From assembly GCA_020832495.1 (NCBI GenBank), contig JAFIEP010000011.1, forward strand, positions 1-64,000: a stretch of DNA of 64,000 nt, written 5' to 3'. Numbering within the stretch: the stretch's first letter is position 1; the number at the start of each line of letters is the position of its first letter. The DNA is from Acidimicrobiia bacterium. GTDB lineage: Bacteria > Actinomycetota > Acidimicrobiia > Acidimicrobiales > Acidimicrobilacustridaceae. The position numbers and the translations under genes were made by a program. Shown here one piece after another: positions 46,092 through 51,460 of this stretch. Below the pieces are notes generated by a model that worked only from the letters and a program-made list of their open reading frames with translations, was not told where the DNA came from and made no database searches.

Positions 46092-46547
46092 TCACCTGGT
46101 GTGGCGCCATGCTGCCCGCCACATCGGTAGCTGCAGGGGCAGCCGGAGCCACACGGCGACTCCCATGAGGTCCTTCGGGCGACCGGTATCGATGGCCATC
46201 TGAACATTTGCCGGGTAGACGAGCACCAGCGTGACCAGTGCCAACCAGGCGCCCGCCCTCCGGGTGGGCGGCACGAGGAGTAGGAGCCCGGACACCACCT
46301 CGGCTGCACCACTCCACATCACGTGGAACCTTGCGTTGCCGGCCCAGCGGGGCACGATCTGTTCGTAGAAGCGGGGCACGACGAAGTGCAGCACCCCCGC
46401 CACGATCAGCAGTCCCGCCAGAGCCAAGCGACCCGGTGGGGCGTCACCGGAGCTCGAGCCACCCGCCGACCGTCCGCCGACGCCACCATCGGGACAGTCA
46501 TCGTCGGCGTTGCCGACAGGCGTTGGCGCCACAGGGGTGGTCGTCAT
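46092..46547 (-). CDS. DoxX-like four-helix membrane protein
   Basis: A 151-residue protein with about 40 variable N-terminal residues and then DoxX-like helices: LALAGLLIVAGVLHFVVPRFY, VMWSGAAEVVSGLLLLVPP, GAWLALVTLVLVYPANVQMA and a last helix. The HFxxPxxY and P(A/G)N(V/I)xMA motifs are typical of DoxX/SURF4-like proteins. Function in this subfamily is unknown. GGAGG lies 6 nt before the ATG. It is divergent from the HNH gene. Confidence 0.82.
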   Translation of the reverse strand: MTTTPVAPTPVGNADDDCPDGGVGGRSAGGSSSGDAPPGRLALAGLLIVAGVLHFVVPRFYEQIVPRWAGNARFHVMWSGAAEVVSGLLLLVPPTRRAGAWLALVTLVLVYPANVQMAIDTGRPKDLMGVAVWLRLPLQLPMWRAAWRHTR

Positions 46548-46560
46548 GAGCTGCCTCCGG

Positions 46561-46602
46561 GGTTCGGTCGTGGAGGTTCGGTCGTGGAGGTTCGGTCGTG
46601 GC
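46561..46602 (-). repeat. Three tandem 14-bp units upstream of the DoxX-like gene
   Basis: GGTTCGGTCGTGGA occurs twice and a third copy differs only in its last base, back to back, about 14 bp before the DoxX-like start codon. It would lie in the 5' untranslated or promoter region; its role is not known. Confidence 0.85.
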
Positions 46603-46782
46603 CGCCACCATCGGCCGGCTCCGGTGGCGAGGCTAGCGGCGCATGACACCGACGAGCCTGCTCCCAGGGAGTCCACTGACCCCGAGCCCGGCTGCGACTA
46701 CCGAGCGTGGTCGACGCTCAAGGTGGGGATTCTTCTGGGTTTCTCGTTGCACACCACGCACCACGGCGATAGAGTCGTACAC

Positions 46783-48534
46783 ATGTTCGGGCAGATCGAC
46801 GATCTCAGGCCTTCGGCTGACAGCGGGGCTCCTGATGGCGACCCGTCGAACCGTCCGGGTCCTCGGGGGGAGCGTCACCGACCGCCCACGGTCGCTGACG
46901 CGCTCCGGACCCTTCGCCACACAGTTGAGCTGCTCGACACCGAGCGCATTGACGTCACGACCGCCACTGCGCTTGCCGAGCAGTACAGCGCCATCGAACG
47001 CCTCGCTGCTGCCGCCACGTCACGCTGTGCTCAACGAGCAGCCAAGGGCGAGGAATGGAAGCGCGCCGGCCACCGCTCCCCCGCCCACTGGATGGCGGCC
47101 GTCACCGGATCGACACCCACCGCCACGGCACGGCATCTCTCGGCGATTGCCCAGCTCGACCGAAACCCCAGGGCGGCCGCTGCGTACACCAACGGTCAGC
47201 TCTCGCGATCACAGGCGGCGCTGCTCGCCCCGGCACTTGCCGAGGCACCCCACCAAGCCGACGAGTTGCTCGATGCAGCACTCGAGGACAGCGTGGCCGA
47301 ACTGCGTGACAAGTGCCGCGACGCACGTGCGCGGGCGCGTGGTCCGGCCGAGGGGCAACGCCACGCCGAACAACGACAACGACGACGACTGACACGCCGC
47401 ACCACCGCCGACGGGCTCGAGGAACTCGCGCTGGCCGGCACCGCCGACGACATCGCCTTCTTCAATGCCGGCGTCTCGGCGCTCCGGGATGCGGCCTACG
47501 CCGACCACAAGCGCCTCCACCCCGACACCGAGCCATCGGCGGCCGCGATCGGGTTCGACGCCGCCATGCTGCTCGCCCGCCATGGCCTCCACGACGTCGC
47601 TCGCCGAGCTGCAGCTGCGCGTTCCGCACGGGCCGATGCCCCCGCTGCTGACAATGCCCAGGGGGCGACCGATCCCCCGCTCCCGTCGAACGATCCCCGC
47701 CCATCGGGCAGTGATCGCGGCAGTGGGAAACGGTTCCGTGTTGCCGCCCCCGAACTCACGGTCCGCGTCGACCACACCGCCTTGGCCCGAGGGCACGCGC
47801 TGCCGGGCGAGATCTGCGACGTTCCCGGGGGCGGACCACTCGCCGTGTGCGTCGTCGAAGGGCTGATCGAGGCCGGTTGTCGGATCGCCGTCGTCGAGGT
47901 GGACGACCTCGGTGCTGTGCGGCGCGTGGCTCATCGCAAACGACGATCCCCCTCGACATCATCGCGGGGAGGACCGACGCTCGACCCGACGGCCAAGGTC
48001 CACCCGACCACCGGGGCGGACACCGTCGACCGATCCCCGCCGTGGTGGTTGGACGTCACGGTCATCGTCGGGGTGCGGTCGACCACCACCGGGGCCGGGG
48101 CCGGGGTCGAGTCCGATCCCGCACCGCCCACGGAGAGCGCCCCAGCGACCGTTGATCGACAGCAACAGGTGAGCGCGCTCCTCGCCCGACTCGACGCCGA
48201 AGGAACCGCAGTCGGAGGCCTCGTCCGCCACCGTCGTGCTCCATCCGCCCACCAACGCACGGCACTGCGGTGGCGCGACCCCACCTGCCGGGTGGAGGGC
48301 TGCACGTCGAGCGCTCGGCTCGAGATGGACCACCACGTCGACTGGGCACACGCTCACCGGACGACGCTCGACGAGCTCGGCCACCTGTGCCCACACCACC
48401 ACCGGCTACGAACCTTCCATGGCTATCGGCTCGGCTCCGGACCAGGGAAACAGCCGCTCCTCCCACCCGTGCGCTCTCAGTCGCCACACACACCCCGACC
48501 CGACGGGCCGACCGGCGATCAGCCACCCGGGTGA
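46783..48534 (+). CDS. DUF222/13E12-type HNH endonuclease
   Basis: A 583-residue protein with a DUF222 helical N-terminal half (ATALAEQYSAIERLAA, SPAHWMAAVTGSTPTATARHL, YTNGQLSRSQAALLAPAL) and a C-terminal HNH motif: RDPTCRVEGCTSSARLEMDHHVDWAHAHRT, then LCPHHHRLRTFHGY. The zinc-binding Cys pairs and His residues are all present. This family is the REP13E12 type, multicopy in mycobacteria and other actinobacteria; no inverted repeats or transposase flank it here. The ATG at 46783 is supported by TTGCAC (46747-46752), a 17-bp spacer and TAGAGT (46770-46775), with seven bases to the start, a textbook leaderless promoter. Confidence 0.92.
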   Translation: MFGQIDDLRPSADSGAPDGDPSNRPGPRGERHRPPTVADALRTLRHTVELLDTERIDVTTATALAEQYSAIERLAAAATSRCAQRAAKGEEWKRAGHRSPAHWMAAVTGSTPTATARHLSAIAQLDRNPRAAAAYTNGQLSRSQAALLAPALAEAPHQADELLDAALEDSVAELRDKCRDARARARGPAEGQRHAEQRQRRRLTRRTTADGLEELALAGTADDIAFFNAGVSALRDAAYADHKRLHPDTEPSAAAIGFDAAMLLARHGLHDVARRAAAARSARADAPAADNAQGATDPPLPSNDPRPSGSDRGSGKRFRVAAPELTVRVDHTALARGHALPGEICDVPGGGPLAVCVVEGLIEAGCRIAVVEVDDLGAVRRVAHRKRRSPSTSSRGGPTLDPTAKVHPTTGADTVDRSPPWWLDVTVIVGVRSTTTGAGAGVESDPAPPTESAPATVDRQQQVSALLARLDAEGTAVGGLVRHRRAPSAHQRTALRWRDPTCRVEGCTSSARLEMDHHVDWAHAHRTTLDELGHLCPHHHRLRTFHGYRLGSGPGKQPLLPPVRSQSPHTPRPDGPTGDQPPG

Positions 48535-48588: not shown

Positions 48589-50133
48589 TCAGGGGTTCAC
48601 GTAGATGAACGAGTAGCCCTCGTCGCGGTAGTCGACCCCACTCTCGTCGAGCGCGTCCGCCCAGTTCCCGGTGCACGAGGGGTCGCTCTCCTGCATCCCG
48701 TGGTCCGCAGTGACGAAGAACGCCGTCCGGTCCCATGCCCCGGAGGCCTCCACTGCCTCGAGGACGCGGCCGATCCGGGCATCGGTGTCGTGCACGCTCG
48801 CTGCTGCGATGTCCGAGTACGGACCGCCCTCGTGGAACGCCGCGTCCGTGAGGGTGAAGTTCACCCAGGTGAACTTCGGCACGGGCCACTCGGTGCCCCG
48901 GTAGTGACCGCTCCAGATCCCACAGGCCTGGTCCACCGAGGTGTGGTCGATCTTCGACGCCGTCTTGTAGTCCTTGCTCGGGCGGACGAAACGTTCGGTG
49001 GCGTCGGGCAACTCAGCGGTCGGTGGTGCAGTCGGGATCTCGGCGCCGGTGCGGAACAACTCGAAGATCGAGTAGTCCGCCCCCGCGTCGCACGGCTCGT
49101 TGATCGACACGGCCAGCGACCCCGGGAAGTGACGCTTCACCGCCGAGTAGAGCGACTCGACCTCGGGTGAGAGATGCTGCATGGAGGTCATCCAATGGGC
49201 CGGTGAGTTGGTGATGATCTGCTCACCCCTTCGTCGGTCGTACCAGGCGTTGTGCAGGATGCCGTGGTGCCCGGGAAAGCAGCCGGTGAGAATCGACGTG
49301 TGATTGGCCAGTGTCACCGTGGGCAGTGCGGAGATCGCACCGTGGCCAAAGGTCGACCCCATCTCCATCAGTCGAGCGATGTTCGGGGCTTCGCCCCTGG
49401 CCACCATGTCGTGGAGCACGTTGGCGTTCGTGCCGTCGATGAGGAAACCGACCACGTGCTCAGGTGCCGATCCGTCGAGCACCTCGTCGAGCACGTCGCC
49501 GTCCTGGCGAGCGAGGTAGGCGTCATCGCGACGGCTCCCGTTGCGGGCCACGCCCGTGGTGGGTTCGGCGCCGAGCAGCGCAAGCACGGTCGGTGCAATG
49601 TCCACGACCGAGCACGCCGACGCCACCATGCCCTCCTGACGCACACCCGCACCGGCAATGACGAACGGTGCCCGAGCCTGCACCACACCGATCGAGCCGT
49701 GCTCCCCGCGGTGGCCCCCTTGGTCCTCCCAATTGTGCGCCCCGGTGTGGATGGCCACCAGATCCGGCGCTGCCGGACTGTCGAACAGTTGGACCACCTG
49801 CTCGTAGGCCATCGGATACGAGTTCTGGTCCCGGGTGGGCGCCGGGTCGGCCCGCTCGGCGTCGAGCGGCGCGAGGTGCCCGGCTGCCTGATGCGCCACC
49901 GGGTTCTCCCCTTCCACCGCCACCACCGAGATGTCCCAGCCGGATCCGGCGGCGCCAGCGGTGAACCGCACGCTGCCCTCGGCCGATGACGCCAGGTACT
50001 CGGTACCGTCGGCCTCGAGCACCATGTCCACGATGTGCGCCATCGACGGATCCAACAGCGCCACACGGGCCCGATCCACGTCGGCGCGATGCTCGTCGGA
50101 GATCGGTCGGTCCACTGGGTCCATGATCGCCAT
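48589..50133 (-). CDS. Alkaline phosphatase superfamily phosphodiesterase, apparently permuted
   Basis: A 514-residue protein of the type I phosphodiesterase/nucleotide pyrophosphatase group. The catalytic core starts only at about residue 228: VGFLIDGTNANVL (metal Asp233), LPTVTLANHTSILTG (nucleophile Thr274), LTDAAFHEGG (Asp430, His434) and TADHGMQE (Asp477, His478). The protein then ends 36 residues later, before the usual last metal His. The N-terminal 220 residues instead carry what normally follows that point: VVQLFDSPAAPDLVAIH, GGHRGEHGSIGV (His145) and DIAPTVLALLGA. This looks like a circular permutation. No signal peptide. TACGGT six bases before the ATG at 50133 marks the start. Confidence 0.85.
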   Translation of the reverse strand: MAIMDPVDRPISDEHRADVDRARVALLDPSMAHIVDMVLEADGTEYLASSAEGSVRFTAGAAGSGWDISVVAVEGENPVAHQAAGHLAPLDAERADPAPTRDQNSYPMAYEQVVQLFDSPAAPDLVAIHTGAHNWEDQGGHRGEHGSIGVVQARAPFVIAGAGVRQEGMVASACSVVDIAPTVLALLGAEPTTGVARNGSRRDDAYLARQDGDVLDEVLDGSAPEHVVGFLIDGTNANVLHDMVARGEAPNIARLMEMGSTFGHGAISALPTVTLANHTSILTGCFPGHHGILHNAWYDRRRGEQIITNSPAHWMTSMQHLSPEVESLYSAVKRHFPGSLAVSINEPCDAGADYSIFELFRTGAEIPTAPPTAELPDATERFVRPSKDYKTASKIDHTSVDQACGIWSGHYRGTEWPVPKFTWVNFTLTDAAFHEGGPYSDIAAASVHDTDARIGRVLEAVEASGAWDRTAFFVTADHGMQESDPSCTGNWADALDESGVDYRDEGYSFIYVNP

Positions 50134-50260: not shown

Positions 50261-51460
50261 ATGAACGCCTCCGACGAGCGGCCCTTTGGCGTGGGTGACC
50301 CCCGCGACTTCCTCGAGATCGACGCACTCCTCGACGACGAGGAACGCATGCTCCGCGACACGGTGCGGCGCTTCGTCGACGACCGGGTACTGCCCGACGT
50401 GGCGGACTGGTTCGAGGAGGGCACGTTCCCCCGCGACATGGCGAAGGACCTCGGCGCGCTCGGGCTGCTCGGCATGCACCTCGAGGGCTACGGCTGTGCC
50501 GGCGCCAGCGCCACCGCCTACGGCCTGGCCTGCCTCGAACTCGAAGCCGGCGACTCCGGCGCGCGCTCGTTCGTGTCGGTGCAGGGCTCCCTGGCCATGT
50601 TCCCCATCTGGCGCTTCGGCTCCGAGGAACAGAAGCAGCGGTGGCTGCCTCCCATGGCTGCCGGGGAAGTGATCGGGTGCTTCGGCCTGACCGAACCGGA
50701 CTCCGGCAGCGACCCGGCCTCGATGCGCACCACCGCTCGCCGTGACGGCGGCGACTGGGTCCTCAACGGCACCAAGATGTGGATCACCAACGGTTCCATC
50801 GCCGACGTCGCCGTCGTGTGGGCCCGCGAGCCCGAGACGAGTGCCATCCACGGCTTCATCGTCCCGACCGACACCCCCGGCTTCAGTGCCCCCGAGATCC
50901 ACCGCAAGCTGTCACTACGGGCCTCGATCACGAGCGAGCTCGTGCTCGACGACGTTCGCCTCCCCGACGAGGCCCGCCTGCCCGAGGTGGCCACCATGCG
51001 AGGGCCGCTGTCGTGCCTCAACGAAGCTCGCTACGGCATCCTGTGGGGCGCCATGGGCGCAGCCCGAGCCTGCTACGAGGCCGCGCTCGACTACGCCGGC
51101 AGCCGCATCCAGTTCGACGTTCCCATCGCCAGCTTCCAGCTCACCCAGCGCAAGCTCGTCGACATGATGGTCAAGGTCAACAAGGGCACCCTGCTGGCGC
51201 TGCACCTGGGTCGCATGAAGGACCGCGGCCAACTGTCCTCGACCCACGTCAGCTTCGGCAAGATGGACAACGTCCGCGAGGCGCTGTGGGTCGCACGGGA
51301 GGCCCGAGGAGTCCTCGGCGCCAACGGCATCACGCTCGAGTACCCGGTCATCCGGCACATGAACAACCTCGAGTCCGTGTACACCTACGAAGGCACCAAC
51401 GAGATCCACACGCTCGTCCTCGGGCAGGCCATCACCGGCATCAGCGCCTTCCGCGCCTGA
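50261..51460 (+). CDS. Acyl-CoA dehydrogenase, glutaryl-CoA dehydrogenase-like
   Basis: A 399-residue FAD enzyme. FAD/substrate motifs are GCFGLTEPDSGSDPAS and WVLNGTKMWITNGSIADV, and the C-terminus has TYEGTNEIHTLVLGQAITGISAF, with the catalytic Glu in YEGTNE; this stretch closely matches glutaryl-CoA dehydrogenases, which end ILGRAITGI-like. It would oxidise and decarboxylate glutaryl-CoA to crotonyl-CoA in lysine/tryptophan breakdown. The Arg and Tyr that set decarboxylation cannot be judged without alignment, so general acyl-CoA dehydrogenase is the fallback. CATCAT lies six bases before the ATG. Confidence 0.85.
   Translation: MNASDERPFGVGDPRDFLEIDALLDDEERMLRDTVRRFVDDRVLPDVADWFEEGTFPRDMAKDLGALGLLGMHLEGYGCAGASATAYGLACLELEAGDSGARSFVSVQGSLAMFPIWRFGSEEQKQRWLPPMAAGEVIGCFGLTEPDSGSDPASMRTTARRDGGDWVLNGTKMWITNGSIADVAVVWAREPETSAIHGFIVPTDTPGFSAPEIHRKLSLRASITSELVLDDVRLPDEARLPEVATMRGPLSCLNEARYGILWGAMGAARACYEAALDYAGSRIQFDVPIASFQLTQRKLVDMMVKVNKGTLLALHLGRMKDRGQLSSTHVSFGKMDNVREALWVAREARGVLGANGITLEYPVIRHMNNLESVYTYEGTNEIHTLVLGQAITGISAFRA

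Follow-up and report, generated by a model that had tools for sequence, protein, structure and literature searches.

Does a bacterial phosphoesterase carry the last part of its catalytic domain at the start of its polypeptide chain? The question arises from a gene in a 64,000-nucleotide stretch of Acidimicrobiia bacterium DNA (assembly GCA_020832495.1, contig JAFIEP010000011.1, positions 1 to 64,000; hereafter the window). An earlier note on this DNA had suggested that the encoded enzyme of the alkaline phosphatase superfamily is circularly permuted. We therefore analysed the chain order of the protein, its relatives, its predicted structure and the conservation of its putative active site.

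Chain order of the window protein

The features of the gene and its product are compiled in Table 1. A GTG-started version of the open reading frame (551 aa) is likewise open, and its extra 37 residues lie outside the conserved protein. In Pfam, PF01663 (Phosphodiest) matched with 122.6 bits (gathering cut-off 23, E=3.6e-35) over residues 227-514, using positions 1-255 of the 342-position profile. The end of the family is therefore absent from its expected place. As the earlier note had read, D233, T274, D430/H434 and D477/H478/G479 follow each other in the normal order, and a GEHGS motif with H145 as well as the segment VDIAPTVLALLG are found in the N-terminal part. Given their conservation in 52 sequences (see below), these motifs are unlikely to be accidental. 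Its statement that the chain ends after DHG holds in that the motif is near the end, but 35 residues follow (35-42 in the family). Likewise, the displaced region that it placed at residues 110-190 is N-terminal but larger, comprising about residues 35-191 (columns 352-491 of a 496-column reference family, see below). That is, the C-block precedes the N-terminal half instead of following DHG, the latter being the usual order, which we count as typical of superfamily members and not as strictly defining.

Table 1. Positions in the window (group B: in the respective loci) of the gene, its segments and predicted active-site residues, and of tandem relatives
Feature	Coordinates	Strand	Remarks
Permuted alkaline-phosphatase-superfamily enzyme gene	48589..50133	-	514 aa + stop; PF01663 on residues 227-514 only
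Displaced block, residues 35-191	49561..50031	-	C-terminal in conventional-order relatives; hhalign columns 352-491, score 70, E=2.3e-8
VDIAPTVLALLG, residues 177-188	49570..49605	-	Usually near catalytic-domain end; helix 176-186 in AlphaFold2 model
Linker, residues 189-225	49459..49569	-	Connects old C-terminus with old N-terminus; length in homologues about 25-45 residues
N-terminal half of conventional fold, residues 226-514	48592..49458	-	Usual internal order; Z 16-19 versus XacNPP 44-295, ENPPs, PafA, SPAP
Asp233	49435..49437	-	Predicted metal ligand = NPP3 D168; invariant 52/52; aligned to 2gsn
Thr274	49312..49314	-	Predicted nucleophile = NPP3 T206; invariant 52/52; aligned to 2gsn
Asn295	49249..49251	-	Predicted phosphate-binding Asn, Thr+21; Asn in 50/52
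Asp430-x3-His434	48832..48846	-	Predicted metal ligands = NPP3 D326, H330; invariant 52/52
Asp477-His478	48700..48705	-	Predicted metal ligands = NPP3 D373, H374; invariant 52/52
His145	49699..49701	-	Predicted seventh metal ligand = NPP3 His483 / XacNPP RGSHGY His; invariant 52/52
Group B tandem genes	L060:1121-4948, L061:1574-5116, L062:1716-5744, L063:1828-5994	+, +, -, -	

An acyl-CoA-dehydrogenase-like gene (window 50261-51460, plus strand) adjoins the gene divergently, and related ORFs occur in neighbourhoods from three other genomes (L099, L100, L110). A long ORF at 46510-48534 (plus strand) has an HNH-endonuclease/DUF222-type look, judged by eye from its C-terminal sequence. In a gene neighbourhood comparison, several neighbours were common to the closest genera only, among them an acyl-CoA dehydrogenase, a PAP2-like protein and a wax-ester-synthase-like protein (named by sequence reading). 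The neighbourhood thus yields no functional clue.

Rotation yields a collinear alignment

For the homology of the displaced block, we compared a profile of residues 103-205, built from 52 sequences, with all PDB sequences (matches taken to E 1, best 0.0022). All 21 matches were members of the alkaline phosphatase superfamily, and it was always their C-terminal parts that matched; they comprised sulfatases, ENPP4, iPGM, phosphonate monoester hydrolase, lipoteichoic-acid synthases and PafA. The VDIAPTVLALLG segment fell on the C-terminal parts of PafA (475-523), sulfatases and iPGM. As conventional-order reference, a family of 496 columns was assembled from relatives found in the same genome searches (L046, L048, L051, L053, L055-L057). 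Aligned to this family in native order, the window protein gave crossed blocks: residues 214-479 matched columns 1-285 (score 138, the best hhalign block with 226 columns), while residues 35-191 matched columns 352-491 (score 70). Rotation of the chain by 195-220 residues turned these into a single alignment of 419-430 columns that spanned nearly all 496 (score about 190, E about 7e-25), and all other rotations in the scan scored lower. Rotation thus restored collinearity with a conventional relative over the full length, the mark of a circular permutant. Profile-profile alignment was used here since the corresponding HMMER scan was uninformative, its local alignment ending after the first block.

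A second reference of conventional order, provided by the inner domain of the tandem proteins described below, showed the same crossing, and hhalign of the displaced block against a conventional family gave E=1.8e-9. Against XacNPP (2gsn), the family profile aligned in crossed order as well, with query residues 232-300, 404-488 and 137-192 on chain residues 14-77, 145-229 and 317-372. The third piece alone is non-significant (-0.2 bits) and places H145, out of order, on the GSHGY His of chain A; because of this lack of significance, the displaced block was subjected to the independent tests given above. In addition, in the homologue L040 the final part of the Pfam Sulfatase profile (219-301 of 301) was found at residues 105-183, ahead of the first part of PF01663 at 212-473.

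Predicted structure

The AlphaFold2 model, calculated from the 52-sequence alignment, forms one confident globule (pLDDT 95.3, pTM 0.94). With such a pTM, one would not expect the first 200 or so residues to form a domain that is separate or floppy. Residues 223-514 superposed on residues 44-295 of XacNPP (Z 18.2, 2.7 A, 242 residues), in a comparison with NPP structures of the kind that the earlier note had called for. Structural comparison with a sequential aligner, which is unable to show the displaced block in place, covered residues 218-514 only (matches in Table 1), as would be expected if the remainder is out of order. The common core fold of the superfamily was thus recognized by structure for residues 218-514 and by sequence profile for residues 103-205. 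A structure search of viral models gave nothing significant.

The permuted chain might also be domain-swapped, the block of one subunit completing the site of its neighbour so that a dimer would have two normal-looking sites. The linker is long enough for either arrangement, and the superfamily includes dimeric members (PMC11677397). We nevertheless consider a swap improbable, since the monomer was predicted confidently throughout, which would be unusual for a block without a place in its own chain.

Conservation of the putative active site

The alignment comprises the window protein and 51 full-length homologues of the same chain order with 36-74% identity. H145, D233, T274, N277, H278, D430, H434, D477 and H478 are invariant in all 52 sequences; T274 sits within PTVT-LANH, and in two sequences a His replaces Asn295. 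In NPP3, the two metal sites are formed by D168, T206, D326, H330, D373, H374 and H483 (PMC6052110), and an Asn at Thr+21 is found in NPP3 (N227), XacNPP (N111) and SPAP (N110) (PMC6052110, PMC3145672). The window protein has counterparts for all seven ligands of the alkaline phosphatase superfamily, D233, T274, D430, H434, D477, H478 and, as predicted, H145. His is invariant in just four columns. Two of them, H434 and H478, are candidate ligands, and a third, H278 (T274+4), is the counterpart of SPAP His93, the residue that holds the nucleophile in place (PMC3145672). As these three are accounted for, H145 is the sole candidate for the seventh ligand. Furthermore, the GDHGY His of ENPP4 aligned with H145 in the profile search with residues 103-205. 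Model confidence, homology and elimination together lead us to predict that His145 is placed at the metal site. Both the pTM and this elimination contradict the arrangement that, according to the earlier note, would speak against permutation, namely a separate N-terminal domain with His145 at a distance from the metal site.

Could the protein be permuted and at the same time catalytically retired, with a regulatory or scaffolding role? Such a role would fit a gene neighbourhood that is conserved only among the closest genera, but even homologues with as little as 36% identity retain all seven ligand positions together with the second-shell Asn/His, and we regard retirement as very improbable. 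Least probable of all is a truncated catalytic domain preceded by a separate, unrelated domain whose resemblance to superfamily C-termini would be coincidental: the third XacNPP block was weak in a single-sequence comparison (-0.9 bits), but the block profile matched superfamily members exclusively, the displaced block aligned significantly to a conventional family, and no invariant His besides H145 is left for the seventh ligand.

Relation to known enzymes

With the NPPs (XacNPP, ENPP1-7), the window protein has in common the Thr nucleophile, the seven metal ligands and the Asn at Thr+21, whereas the last part of the fold is C-terminal there and N-terminal here. The Thr and the Asn also occur in PafA and SPAP (PhoK), alkaline phosphatases of the Thr type, which were matched at Z 17.9-18.9 over 280-284 residues; relative to them, the chain order of the window protein is permuted. 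After rotation of the window protein, the conventional-order actinobacterial relatives that make up the reference family are homologous to it from end to end; they run from N-half to C-block, whereas the window protein runs from C-block to N-half.

The best NCBIfam match, PafA (NF042991), reached 64.9 bits versus a cut-off of 650 (E=4.8e-18), too low for assignment to this equivalog, and phosphonoacetate hydrolase PhnA (TIGR02335) likewise stayed far below its cut-off (45 bits versus 407.55). In SPAP, K171 and R173 form the Lys/Arg pair of monoesterases (PMC3145672). No placement was found for their counterparts in the alignment of the window protein, nor for the NPP and PafA/SPAP substrate determinants in general. 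By sequence reading, no signal peptide is evident, and the protein is therefore probably cytoplasmic, unlike the group B proteins below.

Homologues of the same order and tandem relatives

The search for homologues of the same order, also proposed in the earlier note, revealed collinear proteins in many genomes. Homologues (E <= 1e-30) were detected in 50 of the 397 sampled genomes of the window's taxonomic order, and other families of the phylum as well as three named actinobacterial assemblies also carry intact genes with the same chain order. Phages and viral contigs yielded no homologue, and plasmids no full-length one. An assembly or sequencing artefact was rejected as explanation, as the order recurs in many independent genomes. 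Since it is kept in dozens of related genomes, we take it to be a real, old natural rearrangement. One gene of the window family (group A), L041:1009-2249 on the plus strand in genome G198, is split over two reading frames by a frameshift or an assembly error.

Two further architectures were identified. Group B comprises four proteins of 1181-1389 aa (L060-L063) with the order C1-N1-C2-N2. In profile comparisons, the C-block of the window family matched C1 far better than C2 (score 220 versus 43) and its N-half matched N2 far better than N1 (337 versus 145). The Pfam match to a conventional domain stretches across N1-C2 and is nearly complete (profile 2-340 of 342 in L061). The permuted halves therefore flank a complete conventional domain. 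This arrangement, as read from the sequences, fits either a conventional domain inserted into a permuted one or a preserved duplication intermediate. AlphaFold2 prediction for L061 (1047 aa, 4-sequence alignment) gave a pLDDT of 31.5 and a pTM of 0.25. The group B proteins start with export-signal-like segments and have a secreted look; some carry a C-terminal CarboxypepD/Ig-like domain, and L063 ends in an LPRTGG-type anchor.

The proteins of group C (L045, L047, L049, L052, L054, L058, L059, L068) are about 570-700 aa long, carry hydrophobic segments at the N-terminus and have a membrane-anchored look. Their alignment to the window family runs collinearly through the junction (315 columns, score 175) and sets the His of an SHAS motif on His145; against the conventional family hhalign returned short blocks only. 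We assign them the order C-block, then N-half because of the collinear match to group A. Their segment after DHG is longer, and the cut point may thus differ from that of the window family. In a tree of the N-half, the deep branches were long and weakly supported, and the tree is compatible with one shared permutation event for groups A, B and C or with several.

Discussion

The rotation scan, the displaced-block profile, the homologues of the same order and the single-domain AlphaFold2 model all agree with circular permutation, as the earlier note had suspected. Most probably by a wide measure, the window protein is a natural circular permutant from the NPP/PafA branch, a phosphoesterase folded as a single domain in which His145 completes the two-metal site. 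The conventional chain would read metal Asp, Thr nucleophile, DxxxH and DHG, followed by a terminal block in which the last metal His as well as the final strand and helix lie. This block would have been re-cut to the chain start and joined to the old N-terminus through the linker of about 25-45 residues, presumably by duplication and trimming. In the single domain, His145 would then complete the two-metal site together with D233, T274, D430, H434, D477 and H478. By analogy with the family, we infer metal binding and catalysis at a two-zinc site: Attack of Thr274 on the phosphorus would give a phospho-threonine intermediate, with the phosphoryl oxygens held by Asn295 and one of the metals, and a water bound to metal would then free phosphate or a phosphate monoester. 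The reaction is, again by analogy, probably the hydrolysis of a phosphate mono- or diester.

In the open-access literature we found no report of a natural circular permutation in the alkaline phosphatase superfamily, which is weak evidence as subscription papers were outside this scope; the word stem 'permut' is absent from a 2024 superfamily review. Engineered circular permutants exist for E. coli alkaline phosphatase (Kojima 2005, as cited in PMC2395249). As far as that citation describes them, they indicate that the fold tolerates re-cutting, and they were made in the laboratory, whereas the permutation described here is natural and widely inherited.

For annotation, the permutation explains why the match of such proteins to family profiles stops after three quarters of the model, so that they look truncated. 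It also provides a natural test of how chain order relates to folding and catalysis, with one metal ligand moved to the opposite chain end. The tandem relatives offer a visible route to permutations, namely duplication followed by trimming or insertion. We tentatively suggest, while holding it to be somewhat less probable than its opposite, that the permutation is ancient and founded an actinobacterial branch (groups A, B and C), in which group B would preserve the duplicated intermediate (C1-N1-C2-N2) as two-site enzymes. If so, the group B proteins would be cases of one catalytic domain threaded through another of the same fold.
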